Origin: Rhizobium sp. C4
GTDB lineage: Bacteria; Pseudomonadota; Alphaproteobacteria; Rhizobiales; Rhizobiaceae
DNA length: 64,000 bases
Assembly: GCF_021026315.1 (NCBI RefSeq)
Contig: NZ_JAJNCX010000009.1
Coordinates: 62,001-126,000, forward strand
Direction of reading: 5' to 3'
The stretch's first letter is position 1. Every line of letters begins with the position of its first letter. The position numbers and the translations under genes were made by a program. The notes below the pieces were generated by a model. That model was not told where the DNA came from. It searched no databases and was given only the letters and a program-made list of their open reading frames with translations. Shown here piece after piece: positions 12,621 to 48,736 of the stretch.

Positions 12621-12672
12621 CTACACGGTCGATTGCGCCCGTTCCGCTTCTCTTCCTGAAGGAGGCTCTGAA

Positions 12673-12930
12673 ATGCAGATGAAGCAAGTCCCCGCGGCCC
12701 TGTCGCTCAGCGACCTTGCACACCTGGGTGACGGCGAAGTCGCCTATATCCGAAAGATTTCCGCGACCGATGTCGGTCGCTGCTTCCCCGAAGCGCCGGA
12801 CCTTGATCCGGATATCGATCTCTGGGCGCTTTTCGGCGCCGATGGAACGCCGATCCTGCTCACCGACAACCGCTCCTCGACCTTCTTCAAGGCCGCAGAA
12901 GACCAGTTGAAGACGGTCACGGTTCACTGA
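12673..12930 (+). CDS. DUF1150 family protein
   Basis: An 85 aa cytoplasmic protein of the alphaproteobacterial DUF1150 family, recognised by LGDGEVAYIRKI and DLDPDIDLWALFGADGTPI. Function is unknown. Genes of this family are regularly found directly after hsp20 genes in rhizobia, as here, so a role in the heat-shock response is a fair inference. A strong ribosome binding site (GAAGGAGG) precedes the ATG. Confidence 0.85.
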   Translation: MQMKQVPAALSLSDLAHLGDGEVAYIRKISATDVGRCFPEAPDLDPDIDLWALFGADGTPILLTDNRSSTFFKAAEDQLKTVTVH

Positions 12931-13662: not shown

Positions 13663-14901
13663 TCAGCCCTTGATGGCGTCTTTCAGCGCCTTCACGAGGT
13701 CGGTCTTCTCCCAGGAGAAGGAGCCGTCACGGCCGGCCTTGCGGCCGAAATGGCCATAAGCCGATGTCTTGGCGTAGATCGGCTTGTTGAGGTCGAGATG
13801 GCGGCGGATACCCGTCGGCGACAGGTCCATCACCTTGCGGATCGCAGCTTCGACCTGGTCTTCCGTGACCTTGCCGGTGCCGTGCAGGTCGACATAGATC
13901 GACAGCGGCTGGGCAACGCCGATGGCGTAGGAAATCTGGATCGTGCAGCGGTCGGCAAGACCGGCGGCAACGACGTTCTTGGCGAGGTAGCGGGCAGCAT
14001 AAGCCGCCGAACGGTCAACCTTCGTCGTGTCCTTGCCGGAGAATGCGCCGCCGCCATGGGGCGCTGCGCCACCATAGGTGTCGACAATGATCTTGCGGCC
14101 GGTCAGGCCAGCATCGCCGTCCGGGCCGCCGATGACGAACTTGCCGGTCGGGTTGATGTACCAGACGCAATCGTCGGCAATCTTCAGATCGCCCAGCGCT
14201 TCGCGGATATAGGGCTCAACGACTTCGCGAACCTTCTTCGAATCCCAGCTGGCATCGAGATGCTGCGTGGAGAGAACGATCGACACAGCCTCGACCGGCT
14301 TGCCGTTTTCATAACGAACCGTGACCTGGCTCTTGGCGTCCGGGCCGAGCTTGCCGGCGTCACCCTCGCCCTTGCGGCGGGCAGTGGCGAGCAGCTGCAG
14401 GATCTTGTGCGAATAATAGATCGGAGCCGGCATCAGGTCCGGCGTTTCCTTGCAGGCGTACCCGAACATGATGCCCTGGTCGCCGGCACCTTCATTGCCC
14501 TGCTGGTCGGACGCGTTGTCAACGCCCTGGGCGATGTCGGCCGACTGCGAGTGCAGGAGAACGTCGATCTTGGCCGTCTTCCAGTGGAAGCCGTCCTGCT
14601 CGTAGCCGATATCCTTGATGGCGCGGCGTGCTGCGGTCTTGAACTTGGCCGGGTTGATGACGTCCTGGCCGTTCTTGTCCTTCTTCATCAGGCTCGGCGG
14701 CAGGCGAACTTCACCGGCAATGACGACGCGGTTGGTCGTCGCCAGCGTTTCGCAGGCGATGCGCACGCCCCAGGGGTTCACACCGGTCTTGGCCGCTTCG
14801 CGATACACGAGATCCACGATCTCGTCGGAAATGCGGTCGCAGACCTTGTCCGGATGACCTTCGGACACGGATTCACTGGTGAAAAGGTAGTTGGCGCGCA
14901 T
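13663..14901 (-). CDS. metK: S-adenosylmethionine synthetase (methionine adenosyltransferase)
   Basis: Makes SAM from methionine and ATP with release of phosphate and pyrophosphate. Signature motifs are intact: [10 protein letters not shown] near the N-terminus, [12 protein letters not shown] (ATP binding) and GGGAFSGKD (phosphate loop). I place the start at ATG 14901 ([11 protein letters not shown]), the conserved N-terminus of rhizobial MetK, with GAGGGG upstream; longer frames to 14949 and 14967 add non-conserved residues. There is an insert of about 20 residues ([19 protein letters not shown] region) seen in alphaproteobacterial forms. First gene of metK-trmB. The divergent gap to miaB carries a dyad over a -10 box (14977-14998). 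Confidence 0.96.
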
Positions 14902-35021: not shown

Positions 35022-35654
35022 ATGCGTTTTAAAGCGTCGATGGGAATATTGCTCGCAGCCACGCTTTTGTGGGCCTCGCAAGCGGCAGCCAAAACGGTCC
35101 AGCTTGTCGCCTTTGGCGACAGCCTCATGGCCGGCTATCAGTTGCCCGCCGCCGATGCCTTTCCGGCCAAGCTGGAAGCGGCGCTGAAGGCGAAGGGCTA
35201 TGACGTGGCCATCGCCAACGCCGCCGTTTCCGGCGACACGACCGGCGACGGACTGGCGCGTGCCGACTGGTCTATCCCGGACGGAACCGGTGGCGTGATC
35301 CTGGAGCTCGGCGCCAATGACGCCTTGCGCGGTCTTGCCCCCGAAGACACGAAGAAAAATCTCGATGCCATCCTTGCCCGGCTGAAGGAACGCAAGATCC
35401 CGGTTCTGCTCGCCGGCATCCAGGCCCCGCCGAACCTCGGGCCAGACTATGCCGCCCGCTTCAACCCGATCTTTCCGGATCTCGCCAAAGCATACGGTGC
35501 GCCGCTCTATCCCCTGTTCGTCGAGGCTTACGTGCTCAAGCCCGAACTGAAACTGGACGATGGCATGCACCCGAATGCCAAGGGCGTGGACGCCGCAGTT
35601 GCAGCATTTCTGCCCACGGCCGAGGCGTTTCTGAAATCGATTCCAGCCCGGTAA
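35022..35654 (+). CDS. Secreted SGNH-family arylesterase / lysophospholipase, TesA-like
   Basis: A 210 aa periplasmic esterase. A signal peptide (residues 1-23, cut after AAA) precedes the four SGNH blocks: GDSLMAGY (Ser), the Gly in NAAVSGDTT, ELGANDALRG (Asn) and DDGMHPNAKG (Asp-x-x-His). This is the TesA/arylesterase layout. Divergent from the YbbA-YbbP exporter genes with about 93 bp between them, as in many Proteobacteria, so a shared lipid-related task is likely. The ATG at 35022 is chosen because the signal peptide starts there. Confidence 0.9.
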   Translation: MRFKASMGILLAATLLWASQAAAKTVQLVAFGDSLMAGYQLPAADAFPAKLEAALKAKGYDVAIANAAVSGDTTGDGLARADWSIPDGTGGVILELGANDALRGLAPEDTKKNLDAILARLKERKIPVLLAGIQAPPNLGPDYAARFNPIFPDLAKAYGAPLYPLFVEAYVLKPELKLDDGMHPNAKGVDAAVAAFLPTAEAFLKSIPAR

Positions 35655-35774
35655 GTCAAAAATGTCGCTTGCCTGAAACTATTCGTTCCACAGGGCATTT
35701 CCCTTTTGTCTTGCGCATTTCGCAATTGCGTGATTCGCTAGGATCGTTCGAGTAATAGATTCGGGGAGCTCGTC

Positions 35775-36368
35775 ATGCCCAGACTGTTTACCGCCCTCGA
35801 AATTCCGCGCAATGCGGCCATGAGCCTTTCATTGTTGCGCGGTGGTCTCCCCGGAGCCAGATGGATAGACGTCGAGAACTATCACATCACGCTACGCTTC
35901 ATCGGGGACGTCGATAATCGCACCGCAGATGAAATCGTCGATCGGCTCGACCGCATCGACCGGCCCGAATTCTCCCTGCAACTGTCCGGTACGGGGTCAT
36001 TCGGATCGAAGAAACCGCATTCGGTCTATGCCGGCGTTTCTCCCAATGAGGAAATGTATGCGCTTCAGGCTGAAATCGAGCGGATCTGCCAGCGGATCGG
36101 TCTCCCACCGGATCCCCGCAAGTTCACGCCGCACGTAACGCTGGCGAGGCTGCGTTCGTCACGGGTCGATGATGTCGTACACTATCTTGCAGGGCGCGGT
36201 GACTTCCACACGGCGCCCTTTCTCGTTCCACGCTTCGTGCTGCTTTCGTCGCGCGATTCCGTGGGCGGCGGTCCTTACCTGACCGAGGAAGTGTTCCCTC
36301 TCGCCGACATGTCGGACGATTTCAGCATTTCGGCCAGGGACACGCAGCCCTCCGAGATCATGTGGTAG
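35775..36368 (+). CDS. thpR: RNA 2',3'-cyclic phosphodiesterase (2H family)
   Basis: Opens 2',3'-cyclic phosphates of RNA; formerly called 2'-5' RNA ligase LigT. The two HxTx motifs of the 2H superfamily are intact as HIT at residues 37-39 and HVT at residues 120-122, and the N-terminus RLFTALEIP is typical. The last 94 bp overlap the 3' end of the convergent tyrosine phosphatase gene. Length 197 aa, slightly longer than E. coli ThpR because of a C-terminal tail (SDDFSISARDTQPSEIMW) that is encoded by the overlap. Confidence 0.88.
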   Translation: MPRLFTALEIPRNAAMSLSLLRGGLPGARWIDVENYHITLRFIGDVDNRTADEIVDRLDRIDRPEFSLQLSGTGSFGSKKPHSVYAGVSPNEEMYALQAEIERICQRIGLPPDPRKFTPHVTLARLRSSRVDDVVHYLAGRGDFHTAPFLVPRFVLLSSRDSVGGGPYLTEEVFPLADMSDDFSISARDTQPSEIMW

Positions 36369-43413: not shown

Positions 43414-44190
43414 TCAGAGCTTCCAGCCGGAATGAAGGGCCGCAATGCCGCCGGTATAATTGGTGAAGTTCACCCGCGAGAAGCCGGCCTGGCTGATCAT
43501 GGTCGCGAAATCCCGCTGATTGGGGAACTTGCGGATCGATTCCACCAGATACTGATAGGGCTCGGCTTCGCCGGTGATCATCTTGCCGAATTGCGGGATC
43601 GCCTTGAAAGACCACTGGTCGTAGAACGTATCGAGAAGCGGCATTTCGACTTCGGAAAATTCCAGCACGAGCAGACGTCCGCCGCGCTTCAAGACGCGAT
43701 AGGCCTCCTTCAGCGCCACATCGATATGCGGCACGTTGCGGATGCCGAAGGCGATCGTATAGGCATCGAAGGAATTGGCCTCGAAGGGCAGGCTCTCGGC
43801 ATTGGCCTCGACGAAATCGAGGTTCGGCGAAAGCCCCTTCTTTTCCGCCCGCTCGGCACCGACACCCAGCATCGAGCCGTTGATGTCGAGAACGGTCACA
43901 TGGGCCTGACGGCCCGAGGCTTCCACAATACGAAACGCGATATCGCCCGTGCCGCCGGCAACGTCAAGCGCGCGGTAGTTCTGGTCGCGGCGCGGATTGA
44001 GCGATGCCACCATCGCCTCTTTCCAGGCGCGGTGCAGGCCCGCCGACATGACATCGTTCATGATGTCGTAGCGCTTGGCGACCTTGTGAAACACATCATT
44101 GACGAGGCTCTGCTTTTCGCCGTCCGCGACCTGGCGAAAACCATAGGACGTTTCCATGCCACCATTTGCAGAGGTGCGGCTCTCGTTCAT
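43414..44190 (-). CDS. ubiE: Demethylmenaquinone / 2-methoxy-6-polyprenyl-1,4-benzoquinol methyltransferase
   Basis: SAM-dependent C-methyltransferase of ubiquinone synthesis. Both UbiE signatures are present: [17 protein letters not shown] near residue 41 and [18 protein letters not shown], with the SAM site [14 protein letters not shown] in between. The 258 aa length is typical. First gene of ubiE-ubiB, divergent from mutM. The mutM-ubiE-ubiB cluster is common in rhizobia. Confidence 0.96.
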
Positions 44191-44366
44191 GGGTTCAAGC
44201 TCCCGGTCATCGGTTCTTCAAAGTGAAAGCTCTGGCGCATTCGCCTCTTCGGCGCTATCGCAGGCTCACCTATATATGGACATGCGGTTTTTGCACCGCA
44301 ACGTGATGCGGCGTCTATAGACCAGATTGCAGCTACACGAAACAGATTTGAGAGAAAGAGGTTACC

Positions 44367-45257
44367 GTGCCCGAACTGCCCGAGGTGGAAACTGTCCGGC
44401 GAGGTCTCGCGCCGACCATGGAGGGCGCGCGCCTCACGCAGCTGGAACTGCGCCGCCCGAACCTGCGCTTTCCCTTCACGGAAGGCATGGCCGGTCGGCT
44501 GGCCGGCCGGCAGATCGACAGCCTGAGCCGCAGGGCCAAATATCTGCTGATCAATTTTGAAGGCGGGCTGACGGCGATCTCCCATCTTGGCATGTCCGGC
44601 TCTTTCCGGATCGAGGCGGGCGGCGAACCTGCGACACCTGGCGACTTCCATTATGCGCGCTCCAAGGACGAGAAGCACGACCATGTCGTCTTCCACCTGA
44701 CGCGGGCCGATCAGCCCGCCCGGATCATCTATAATGACCCCCGCCGCTTCGGCTTTCTCCTGCTGGAGGAGACCGCAAGGCTCGCCGACAATCCCTATCT
44801 CGCCAGCCTCGGCCCGGAGCCGACGGGCAACAGCCTCAGCGCTGAAATGCTGGCCGCGGCCTTTGCGGACAAGAAGGCGCCGCTGAAGGCGGCCCTTCTC
44901 GATCAGACCGTGATCGCCGGGCTTGGCAATATCTATGTCTGCGAGGCGCTGCACCGGGCAGGGCTGTCGCCCCGGCGGGCGGCGGGCACGATGGTGGACA
45001 AGAAGGGCAGGGCAAAGCCGCAGCTTGGCCTTCTCGTCGAATGCGTCCGCGATGTCATCGCCGAGGCGATCGCCGCCGGCGGCTCGTCGCTGCGCGACCA
45101 TATCCAGACGGACGGATCGCTCGGTTATTTCCAGCATACATTCCGCGTCTATGATAGAGAGGGCGAGGCCTGCCCCAATCCGGGTTGCGGGCGCCCGGTG
45201 GAGCGGATTGTCCAGTCGGGCCGTTCGACCTTCTTCTGCGCGGCATGCCAGAAATAG
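44367..45257 (+). CDS. mutM: Formamidopyrimidine-DNA glycosylase (8-oxoguanine DNA glycosylase)
   Basis: Base-excision repair enzyme removing 8-oxoguanine and FapyG, with AP lyase activity. The N-terminal PELPEVET (catalytic Pro1 and Glu2 after Met removal), the Lys near LSRRAKYLL, the H2TH domain [17 protein letters not shown] and a C-terminal zinc finger (CPNPGCG then FFCAACQK) are all intact. It starts with GTG at 44367, since PELPEVET must follow the initiator directly. Length 296 aa. Confidence 0.96.
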
Positions 45258-45279
45258 GAGTCTCGCCGCATTTTGCGCG

Positions 45280-45307
45280 TTGACTGGCGTGCGCTTTCCC
45301 GTTATAT
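45280..45307 (+). promoter_or_regulatory. Strong sigma-70 promoter for rpsT
   Basis: TTGACT (45280-45285) and TTATAT (45302-45307) with 16 bp spacing match the rhizobial consensus (CTTGAC, CTATAT) well. The leader would be about 125 nt, long enough for feedback control by S20. Confidence 0.6.
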
Positions 45308-45437
45308 GCCCGCCAACCGTTTGGAAAGCCACCGTTCCGGTCCTTTCCGTCAAACGCTTCCACTTGAGTTCTGACGAATGGTCTGGCGACCGAGCGCGGC
45401 AGAGTGGTAGCATATCGAGTTTGTAAGAGAGGCACAT

Positions 45438-45704
45438 ATGGCCAATACATCTTCTGCGAAGAAGGCGACCCGCAAGATTGCTCGCCGCACCGACGTCAAC
45501 AAGGCTCGTCGTTCGCGCGTCCGTTCCTTCCTCCGCAAGGTTGAAGAAGCAATCGCTTCTGGCGACGCAAAGGTTGCACAGGAAGCTCTCCGCGCCGCAC
45601 AGCCCGAGCTGATGCGCGCTGCCGGTCGCGGCGTCGTTCATGCCAACACGGCATCGCGCAAGGTTTCGCGTCTGGCGAGCCGCGTGAAGGCCCTTTCGGT
45701 CTGA
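45438..45704 (+). CDS. rpsT: 30S ribosomal protein S20
   Basis: Primary 16S rRNA binding protein. The 88 aa sequence is Ala/Lys/Arg-rich, begins [12 protein letters not shown] and contains [20 protein letters not shown] and the C-terminal [20 protein letters not shown], all diagnostic of S20. A good promoter lies upstream and a terminator follows. The position just before dnaA is common in rhizobia. Confidence 0.97.
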
Positions 45705-45731
45705 TCATCTGATCGAAATCTGAAGATTTAA

Positions 45732-45759
45732 AAAGCCTGGTCGTCTGACCGGGCTTTTT
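45732..45759 (+). terminator. Intrinsic terminator of rpsT
   Basis: Eleven bp stem (45732-45742 with 45747-45757, one G-T pair) followed by TTTTT. Confidence 0.88.
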
Positions 45760-45919
45760 GTCGTTTCCGTCGGCGGCGTCATCATCGCGCCATCTCCTTG
45801 TCATTCATCATCTTCCTTCATGACAGGATGCTGACATAAAAAGCATTTAGTTTTCAATATCTTGGCGAAGGTGACAGAGGCGGATGCGACCTCACTTAAC
45901 GGAAGGTTGGCCTATTTTT

Positions 45920-46046
45920 GAGTCAAGAAAAAAATAATTTTTTTTGCATTTCGAGGGTGCTCGACCCTTCTGAAAACGAATCTCGTTGATTCAAAAGCGA
46001 TTCTTTTTCGGGGGCTTGGCCGGGACAGAAACCCGCCTTCTGAGTC
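45920..46046. promoter_or_regulatory. Cluster of five GANTC (CcrM methylation) sites upstream of dnaA
   Basis: GANTC occurs at 45920, 45978, 45988, 45999 and 46042, five copies in 127 bp, where about one per 280 bp is expected at 60 percent GC. GANTC is the target of the cell-cycle methyltransferase CcrM, and in Caulobacter methylation of such a site in the dnaA promoter stimulates its transcription. The same use here is inferred from position. Confidence 0.55.
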
Positions 46047-46527
46047 AATGGTCGCGAGTTAAAATTGCGTAAAAAACGCGATTGATCTTTGGAAACGTTC
46101 CTGCGTAAATGCATCCAACAGAGGGCGGACAACGCCGGACAAAATGATCGCGACGTTTGGGGAATACCTGATTACGAAACGGTTGAGTGCTCTGTAGCGG
46201 ACCCTGTTCGGTTCCGCGTTTTCACGACTGGTCACGCATGAAACCTGGCCCATGGTTTCGGGCCTGCTCTCTACGTGTGTCCAGATACCTGGTGCGCGAG
46301 AGGAGCGTCAGGCTGGGTGAAAGAAGACGAGGCGGGTTGCCTGACCCGGCCTTGCGAAGCACGAGCCTTCTTGCTGCCGGAATAGGCAGTGAAGCTTGCG
46401 CCAAGCTGGGCTGAACCGGAAACGGAAGGTGCGTAACGAGTGTAATGCGTAGTCGATCTGTTCGGGGCGGAGTGGATCGATCTTTGGAATGACAGCCCGG
46501 CCAAGAGAGATACGAGGCTCTGGTCGG

Positions 46528-46536
46528 TGTGGATAA
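46528..46536 (-). promoter_or_regulatory. DnaA box in the dnaA leader
   Basis: TGTGGATAA is the reverse complement of the consensus DnaA box TTATCCACA, a perfect match, 21 bases before the dnaA start codon. It would let DnaA bind its own gene. I find no other close match in the region, so this is not an origin cluster. Confidence 0.65.
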
Positions 46537-46557
46537 GAGAAGTTAGAGAGGCGGCTC

Positions 46558-48102
46558 ATGACGATGGCACAAGCATCGGTGCGCGCACGCGAAAGCGGCG
46601 CAGCGCCAGTGATCGGTTCGTCCGAAATTCAAGCGGCGGGGAATATTCAGACTATGGGAAATAACGCTTTGTTCGAGCGTTTCAGCGCCCGGCTCAAAGC
46701 CAAGGTTGGTGCTGACGTCTATGCAAGCTGGTTTGGCAGACTGAAGCTGCATTCCGTTTCGAAGAGCGTGGTCAGACTGACCGTTCCGACGACCTTTCTG
46801 AAGTCCTGGATCAACAATCGCTATCTCGACCTCATCACCGCGCTCTTCCAAGAGGAAGATGCCGAGATCATGAAGGTCGAAATCCTGGTCCGCACCGCGG
46901 CCCGCGCCTCCAAGGTTGCAGCAGACGACGATGTCGCCGATGCCGCTCCCGTTCAGTCGACGCAGCCGCAGGGCGCTCGCCGTCCTTCCGCCCAGCCGAT
47001 CGCCCAGATCGCCTCGTCCGTTGCGCCGTCCTCCTGGCAGGCCAGTGCTGCGACGCCGCTCTTCGGCTCGCCGCTTGATGCGCGCTACACCTTTTCTTCC
47101 TTCGTGGAAGGCAGTTCCAACCGCGTGGCGCTTGCTGCCGCCAAGACGATTGCCGAAGCCGGTGCCGGCGCCGTGCGCTTCAACCCGCTCTTCGTTCATT
47201 CGAGCGTGGGTCTCGGCAAGACGCATCTTCTGCAGGCCATTGCCGCTGCTGCCATCACCAGCCCGCGCAACCCGCGCGTCGTCTATCTGACGGCTGAATA
47301 TTTCATGTGGCGCTTTGCCGCCGCCATCCGCGACAACGATGCGCTGTCGCTGAAGGAATCGCTGCGCAATATCGATCTTCTGATCATCGACGACATGCAG
47401 TTCCTGCAGGGCAAGTCGATCCAGAACGAGTTCTGCCACCTCCTCAACACCCTGCTCGACAGCGCCCGTCAGGTCGTCGTTGCCGCCGACCGCGCGCCGT
47501 GGGAGCTGGAATCGCTCGATCCGCGCGTCCGTTCGCGCCTCCAGGGTGGCGTTGCCATCGAAATGGAAGCGCCTGACTACGAGATGCGCCTTGAAATCCT
47601 CAAGCGTCGCCTCGAAGTAGCCCGCATGGACGACCAGTCGCTGGACATTCCGGAAGGCGTGCTCGACCACGTCGCCCGCCGCGTCACCGCAAGCGGTCGC
47701 GAGCTGGAAGGCGCGTTCAACCAGCTTCTGTTCCGCCGCTCCTTCGAGCCGGACCTGTCGATGGAACGCGTTGACGAACTGCTCGCCCATCTGGTCGGCG
47801 CCGGCGAACCCCGCCGCGTCCGCATTGAGGACATCCAGCGCGTGGTTGCCCGTCACTACAACGTGTCGCGCCAGGAGCTCGTCTCCAACCGTCGCACCCG
47901 CGTCATCGTCAAGCCGCGCCAGATCGCCATGTATCTGTCGAAGACGCTGACGCCGCGCTCCTTCCCGGAAATCGGCCGTCGCTTCGGTGGCCGTGACCAC
48001 ACGACCGTGCTGCACGCCGTGCGCAAGATCGAGGAGCTGATCACCGGCGACCAGAAGCTCAGCCACGAAATCGAGCTCCTGAAGCGCCTGATCAACGAAT
48101 AG
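46558..48102 (+). CDS. dnaA: Chromosomal replication initiator protein DnaA
   Basis: AAA+ ATPase that binds DnaA boxes and opens the chromosomal origin. Domain I starts around [24 protein letters not shown] (residues 35-58), with an N-terminal extension of about 30 residues before it; a variable Ala/Gln/Ser-rich domain II spans about 125-170; the AAA+ domain has Walker A SSVGLGKT (about 218-225, Ser in place of the usual first Gly) and Walker [12 protein letters not shown]; domain IV ends with the DnaA signature [16 protein letters not shown]. The ATG at 46558 has GAGAGG upstream; a start at 46654 ([10 protein letters not shown]) would remove the extension and is possible. 514 aa. Confidence 0.96.
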
Positions 48103-48123
48103 TCGGTCATGCTATCTATCTTG

Positions 48124-48155
48124 AAAGGGGCTGGCAGCGATGCCGGCCTTTTTCG
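48124..48155 (+). terminator. Intrinsic terminator of dnaA
   Basis: Stem AAAGGGGCTGGC / GCCGGCCTTTTT (about 48124-48135 with 48142-48153, two G-T pairs) ending in a T run. Confidence 0.75.
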
Positions 48156-48211
48156 TTTGTACGGTCGGAAGTCCGCGCTATATTCAGAGCAATATAACGC
48201 TGGAGGGGATC

Positions 48212-48736
48212 ATGGTCCGCGAAAACGAAATCCGCGAGAATGAGGTGGCCGTTGCGCCTCCAGCAGCACGGGATGCCGGTCTGGAATTCATCGGCCGCAT
48301 TTCAACCCCCTGGACCTCGCGCATGGAAACGCCGCGGCAGGGCCGTCCTGACGGGCCGGTCTGCGTGATCGAAGTCTTCGAGCCCTGGGACCGGGCGCTG
48401 GAAGGGGTGGCGAAATTCGAGCGGCTGGAAGTGCTCTACTGGCTTGATCGCTCCCGCCGCGATCTCGTGCTGCAAAGCCCGGCCTCCAATGGCACCATCC
48501 ATGGCGCCTTTTCGCTGCGCACCCCGGTGCGCCCCAATCCCATCGGCACGTCGATCGTCATTCTGGAAAAGATCGAAGGCAACCGCCTCTTCGTCCGCGG
48601 CCTCGATTGCCTCGACGGCACGCCGCTTCTCGACCTGAAGCCGGATCGCACGCTCTTCAAACCCATCGCCCCGCCGCAGGCAGGTGATTTCCAGACGGGT
48701 GACACTGGCACGGCGCATTATTGCCAGAAGGCGTGA
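48212..48736 (+). CDS. trmO: tRNA (adenine-N6)-methyltransferase TrmO (TsaA-like)
   Basis: SAM-dependent enzyme of the UPF0066/YaeB fold that methylates N6 of t6A37 in tRNA-Thr. The beta-barrel domain spans about residues 24-160: IGRISTPW, the SAM-site motif RTPVRPNPIG and GLDCLDGTPLLDLKP are conserved. The ATG at 48212 has GGAGGGG upstream; an earlier in-frame Met at 48140 lies inside the dnaA terminator and is rejected. 174 aa, shorter than E. coli TrmO (235 aa) because the C-terminal domain is absent, which is usual for this alphaproteobacterial type. Confidence 0.83.
   Translation: MVRENEIRENEVAVAPPAARDAGLEFIGRISTPWTSRMETPRQGRPDGPVCVIEVFEPWDRALEGVAKFERLEVLYWLDRSRRDLVLQSPASNGTIHGAFSLRTPVRPNPIGTSIVILEKIEGNRLFVRGLDCLDGTPLLDLKPDRTLFKPIAPPQAGDFQTGDTGTAHYCQKA

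Follow-up and report, generated by a model that had tools for sequence, protein, structure and literature searches.

In the 64-kb window (the whole stretch of Rhizobium sp. C4 DNA analysed here), five GANTC sites are packed into 127 bp upstream of dnaA. A count of GANTC upstream of dnaA in the Rhizobiaceae showed that four of the five are near-invariant beyond the genus, and that the spacing between them is nearly fixed. Judging from sequence comparison, this upstream region is probably a real, selected control region of dnaA, which is probably responsive to methylation and may tie dnaA to the replication cycle. The reading that we favour, at slightly better than an even chance, takes the dnaA promoter to have an upstream control region in which the five sites would be open to methylation, so that methylation and hemimethylation would shift dnaA transcription.

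The preliminary description had counted the five sites by hand between 45920 and 46046, against an expectation of about 0.5. All five were recovered exactly there by a motif count (GAGTC at 45920, GAATC at 45978, GATTC at 45988 and 45999, and GAGTC at 46042), and the mononucleotide expectation for the 127 bp, 0.47, agreed with the earlier figure. At the window's own GANTC rate the expectation drops to 0.11. Because GANTC is rare in the window (56 in 64 kb, where dinucleotide shuffles averaged 363), five sites in 127 bp are far above both the local and the window expectation, and the Poisson probability of finding at least five GANTC in one fixed 127-bp stretch at the window rate is ~1e-7. The stretch is also the densest 127 bp of the window for GANTC. 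The runner-up among independent groups holds three sites (35639-35762), located partly at the end of an ORF and partly in the spacer that precedes another ORF, at 35775. The earlier placement of the cluster upstream of dnaA is correct, but the distance is large, with the sites lying 512-638 bp before the ATG at 46558 (Table 1). Directly 3' of dnaA, at 48124-48160, there is a weak match to ctRNA_p42d (25.6 bits, gathering score 50) that by eye is a simple terminator hairpin; this was the best match in an Rfam search of 44000-48500 at a permissive threshold, in which no family came near its gathering score.

Table 1. Positions in the window of the dnaA upstream module and its neighbouring features.
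Feature	Coordinates	Strand	Remarks
rpsT (ribosomal protein S20)	45438..45704	+	Pfam Ribosomal_S20p 1.6e-25; upstream neighbour whose end delimits the intergenic region
Site A, first GANTC, GAGTCAAG	45920..45927	+	
Largely conserved A/T tract, between sites A and C	45928..45945	.	
Site B, fifth GANTC, GAATC	45978..45982	+	Not in every lineage
Site C, TTGATTC	45986..45992	+	Other families of the order have similar sites
Site D, GATTCT, 11 bp past site C	45999..46004	+	
Site E, GAGTCAA	46042..46048	+	
Predicted core promoter	46082..46110	+	-35 TTGATC 46082-46087, 17-bp spacer, -10 46105-46110
Predicted long dnaA 5' leader, ~440 nt	46117..46557	+	Inferred
Perfect DnaA box TTATCCACA	46528..46536	-	Only exact box in the window
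dnaA, presumed target gene	46558..48102	+	Pfam DnaA_N, Bac_DnaA, Bac_DnaA_C

Conservation was assessed in an aligned set of 100 distinct rpsT-dnaA regions. The named loci in this set were the best 80 of at least 583 candidates by DnaA similarity, so the set is biased towards near relatives; further loci came from six genomes of the genus, the window's own included, and from 394 family genomes, of which the best 30 supplied loci. Of 111 loci, 99 were aligned together with the window; the rest were its own two copies (L001 and L002), six that duplicated another locus exactly and four in which rpsT was not detected. GANTC was kept at site A in 98 of the 100 regions and at sites C, D and E in 99 each; one locus is without C and E (L038) and another without D (L087). 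Site B (45978) is a GANTC in 63 of the aligned regions, and this fifth site is probably a later addition. The preliminary description had named absence of the cluster from sister species as one outcome that would speak against it. The array was present in all five other genomes of the genus, so that this objection failed: four of them (L003-L006) have the same five sites, and the fifth (L007) has those five and a sixth inside the cluster.

Across the 100 regions, the commonest base averaged 99.6% in the GA and TC columns of sites A, C, D and E and 99.75% in their N columns, compared with 64.7% in the other columns of 45905-46081 (site 45978 excluded) and 52.5% in the columns taken as intervening. 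The density of GANTC in the same regions was 6.83 per kb, which is 5.7 times a background of 1.19 per kb that was derived from the window and 400 kb of one sister genome, and hence from one genus; eleven of the 15 other pentamer classes stood at 1.0-3.4 times background, AANTT being the highest.

The distances between the sites were similarly uniform. Sites A and C were 68 bp apart in 96 of the 100 regions and 69 bp apart in two, with no site A found in two. The pattern TTGATTC-N6-GATTC, which itself sets the C to D spacing at 11 bp, matched strictly in 98 regions, and a relaxed form of it matched the remaining two; when the C-D spacing was left free, 96 regions had 11 bp and three had another value, while one was without TTGATTC. 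Site D was followed by site E at 42-44 bp in 99 of the 100 regions, and of the 89 regions in which both site E and the TTGA of the -35 element were found, 88 had them 40 bp apart, even though the sequence between site E and the promoter-like TTGAT-N18-CTAAAT is scrambled across relatives. A chance cluster in an AT-richer spacer, for which one could cite the local expectation of 0.47 that exceeds the window rate, is already refuted by this alignment, since both the sites and their spacing are conserved across genera; we give it practically no credence.

When a spacer of 15-20 bp was allowed, the promoter pattern matched 90 of the 100 regions, all of them with 17 bp, and the -10 hexamer read GTAAAT in the window and CTAAAT in most matched relatives. 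A scan for E. coli-consensus promoters and terminators called nothing, so the predicted promoter draws on the alignment and on the preference of rhizobia for CTATAT-like -10 boxes. The dnaA transcription start is predicted near 46117, which would place sites A, C, D and E at about -197, -129, -118 and -75. The resulting leader fits the long putative 5'-UTR of S. meliloti dnaA, for which probes as far as -372 responded (PMC4414408; like the other papers cited here, represented by excerpts). The predicted folding of the leader was not unusual (z -1.08). A minus-strand promoter in GAGTCAAG (CTTGAC on the other strand) was dropped by eye because no conserved -10 follows, as was a CtrA-like TTAA-N7-TAAA before the -35, which is off consensus.

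The genome encodes GcrA (PF07750, 1.1e-62), and a 387-aa open frame in it (genome G000) carries a RAMA domain (PF18755) that scores over the cut-off. By its domain this protein appears to be CcrM-type, as expected of CcrM; in a control search of 14 genomes, the RAMA domain was matched only in Caulobacter. The earlier proposal that the cluster is a rhizobial version of the dnaA methylation switch is upheld in part: the conserved array, the fixed spacing and the coding capacity for GcrA and a RAMA protein speak for it. From the predicted start, the sites would lie at about -197 to -75 and outside the -35/-10 zone. As at CcrM-controlled promoters, conserved GANTC sites lie in the promoter region (the start being predicted) and a CcrM-type protein is present. 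A GcrA-activated promoter of the Caulobacter type would have its GANTC at or between the -35 and -10 elements.

Clusters of GANTC were also found elsewhere. In 400 kb of a sister genome (G001; 200 kb at a contig start and 200 kb around dnaA, chosen by the analyst), four places had at least four GANTC in 127 bp, namely at dnaA, at gcrA, at a ParA/replication-initiator pair (Pfam RPA 1e-85) and at a divergent LysR/MarR pair. The gcrA array consists of four GANTC with spacings of 10, 9 and 13 bp in both the own and the sister genome, and it was kept in 11 of 15 loci, these two included and one having 14 for 13; the 15 were those with a usable start among 30 loci, the other 15 being left out. Together, the dnaA module and the gcrA array suggest that GANTC clusters mark replication control points. 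In the own genome, the 465 bp upstream of gcrA contain ten GANTC (L143; G000:C50 near 140117). The densest cluster in the sampled 400 kb, six GANTC in 127 bp (L165 ~12653-12792; G001:C4 ~792650), adjoins genes for a plasmid-type replication initiator and a ParA-like protein, perhaps within an integrated element. Four GANTC in 127 bp (L164 ~14096-14218; G001:C4 ~774096) lie at the start of a LysR-family gene from which a MarR-family gene diverges.

The cluster at the ParA/replication-initiator pair of the sister genome, together with the A/T tract of the dnaA module, could be taken to mean that the module is a replication-control DNA site, such as an origin or an initiator-titration site, and not a promoter element. 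We regard this as very unlikely. The DnaA box that precedes dnaA is exact in only three of the 100 aligned regions (the window and two others of its genus) and so lies outside the conserved module; perhaps it serves a lineage-specific autoregulation. Furthermore, the rhizobial replication origin adjoins hemE, and dnaA of the sister genome is 351 kb away from that gene. Neither of the marks of a chromosomal origin, conserved DnaA boxes and a GC-skew switch, was found at the locus, with no clear GC-skew switch in the whole 64-kb window.

Part of the conservation concerns letters beyond the methylation motif. Among near relatives, sites A and E show no variation in their N or in the AA that follows, and the GTCAA of site A is identical in all 100 regions. 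Two loci (L020 and L051) have lost the GA of site A and retained GTCAAG. Because the N and AA do not vary and GTCAAG survives the loss of GA, a sequence-reading protein probably also constrains the region. CcrM does not need a particular base at N, so its invariance among near relatives weakens the methylation reading. The two loci without the GA, L020 and L051, are natural cases in which to test whether the sequence is read when it cannot be methylated.

The place of site B is occupied by CAA-N5-TTG, which is of the NtrX type, in 33 of the 100 regions. In S. meliloti, NtrX binds the dnaA promoter at CAAAACCCTTG, as indicated by gel shift and ChIP-seq enrichment (PMC9223101). The Ensifer/Sinorhizobium rows L013, L015 and L027 (named loci; S. 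meliloti itself is not among them) read CAAAACCCTTGATTC, so the NtrX string CAAAACCCTTG lies inside the module in these rows and shares its TTG with site C. The window differs in having GAATCTCGTTGATTC, in which a methylation site replaces the CAA half; at the site B place it reads GAATCTCGTTG, with GANTC for CAA, and the NtrX consensus CAA-N2-5-TTG is absent there.

The module might consist of ordinary transcription-factor sites that happen to contain GANTC, read by NtrX or by an unnamed reader of GTCAAG/TTGATTC, with methylation being incidental. This would account for the invariant N and AA of sites A and E, for the retention of GTCAAG in the two loci that lost GA, for the binding of NtrX to the S. 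meliloti dnaA promoter (PMC9223101) and for the alternation of site B with an NtrX half-site. We consider it a possible explanation to be kept in mind, albeit a doubtful one. Against it stand the enrichment of GANTC as such, the presence of the motif in all four separate sites, and the further GANTC clusters at gcrA and at a plasmid-type replicon. Two observations from more distant loci also count against it, namely the variation of the N of site C between lineages and the position at which GANTC accompanies GTCAAG in other families, where 81 bp is the commonest of the offsets tested.

Both observations come from loci outside the aligned set. In other families of the order, a GANTCAA...TTGANTC pair within 50-95 bp was present in 9 of 65 usable loci, and in seven of these nine (7/65) the A-C pair was exactly 81 bp apart; in 200 Markov-randomised sets, an average of 0.2 loci had a pair of this kind, and no set had two loci at one spacing. 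One of the nine pairs (L243) looks unrelated. Since this pattern itself demands GA and TC, it cannot show that these letters were kept. We therefore also consider GTCAAG alone, with GA not demanded: it occurred 40 times in the 65 loci, and 8 of 39 had a GANTC at offset 81, while no other offset between 40 and 120 was seen more than twice. Two of these eight matches (L248 and L253) are without the usual flanks. GA precedes GTCAAG in 16 of the 40 occurrences in the other families (L198-L264), also in loci without an 81-bp partner. Of 20 usable loci from outer Rhizobiaceae, eight had the pair; its spacing was 70 or 79-80 bp in seven, and the eighth (L117) has a different combination. The A-C pair was found in 0 of 27 usable class-level loci. 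At site C, outer Rhizobiaceae have A or T as the N, whereas the other families have G or C, apart from a T in the single locus with the 60-bp spacing; methylation would tolerate such variation between lineages. A scan with the flanks only placed GANTC inside 13 of the 27 best matches, compared with 2 of 94 in shuffles, but is partly circular because the flanks were chosen from GANTC-bearing rows. By lineage, the A-C spacing takes values of 60 (one locus), 68-70 and 79-81 bp; these steps of roughly one helical turn are suggestive only.

Genome-wide, TTGANTCAA has 25 matches in the own genome, of which two fall within the cluster; its reversed control has 12. Across the order, TTGATTC-N6-GATTC was present in 58 of 297 genomes; the reversed control for this pattern is unfair because CTTAG-type words are rare. 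Five of the 58 (G000, G033, G051, G131 and G196) are Rhizobiaceae with the match just upstream of dnaA. Among ten loci inspected for this pattern, nine were without dnaA, and in L139 the match lies past the dnaA start.

The A/T tract between sites A and C also allows the module to be seen as a silencing site, at which MucR would bind, repress dnaA and shield GANTC from CcrM; such shielding by MucR is known from S. meliloti promoters (PMC5172544). We judge this unlikely. A silencer is not expected to fix the spacing of GANTC, and in the methylomes of 21 S. meliloti strains the top intergenic hits for GANTC methylation include dnaA (PMC11711589), which in the excerpted literature is the closest published statement to the present finding.

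If the favoured methylation reading is correct, CcrM would methylate the GANTC sites late in the cycle, and the replication fork passing dnaA would leave them hemimethylated. A protein complex would read the flanking letters together with the methyl groups, with GcrA as the prime candidate and NtrX as a possible reader in lineages with CAA-N5-TTG, and the binding of either would be methyl-sensitive. Hemimethylation would change the grip of this reader and shift dnaA transcription until CcrM restores full methylation. As to the direction, our guess is that hemimethylation would lower dnaA transcription, such that re-initiation is discouraged. Published findings count against a strong effect on dnaA. 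In Caulobacter, the effect of methylation on the dnaA promoter was small but significant (PMC3973325), and DnaA protein levels were unchanged in cells without ccrM (PMC3667746). In CcrM-depleted A. tumefaciens, section 21 of the report names gcrA, repABC and SOS genes as affected and does not name dnaA (PMC11514494), and the cell-cycle gene promoters of E. meliloti were, in the excerpted text, not enriched in GANTC (PMC8725594).

A further idea is that the array serves as a scaffold for an unrecognised hemimethylation-reading complex with a SeqA-like function in Alphaproteobacteria, which we hold to be improbable. If true, it would mean that the dnaA promoter is held in an altered state from fork passage until remethylation by CcrM, and that the steps in the A-C spacing (60; 68-70; 79-81 bp) reflect a need for the same DNA face. 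In E. coli, SeqA and Dam control oriC and the dnaA promoter via GATC hemimethylation. The idea of a hemimethylation window near a replication gene is shared with that system, and sites C and D are about one helical turn apart, but the methyl mark in E. coli, GATC, is another one, and we know of no alphaproteobacterial SeqA.

Of the other known systems, the Caulobacter dnaA promoter with its CcrM ratchet (PMC3973325) has the same gene, methyltransferase and proposed logic as the module described here. It differs in that the A-C pair was absent from all 27 usable class-level loci, which need not include Caulobacter, and in that its methylation effect has been called small. The A. tumefaciens gcrA promoter has 6 GANTC in 250 bp and is less active when methylated (PMC11514494), and so likewise combines dense GANTC with a position upstream of a cell-cycle gene. 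It concerns another gene, and its methylation effect was measured, whereas the dnaA module is known from sequence and its sites lie farther upstream. The repABC loci with extra GANTC (PMC11514494) are a further case of GANTC-rich control of a replication initiator, although on a plasmid or chromid replicon and not at dnaA.

In the excerpts of the open-licence literature, no description of a GANTC array upstream of dnaA was found, and related pieces have been published. An earlier GANTC survey was restricted to sites between -400 and +100 relative to start codons (PMC2877005), and dnaA does not appear in the excerpted main text of the S. meliloti transcription-start paper (PMC3616915). Surveys of GANTC that are limited to 100-200 bp upstream of ORFs would miss the module. 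With four exact sites at a fixed spacing, it can be tested directly whether methylation times dnaA in rhizobia.
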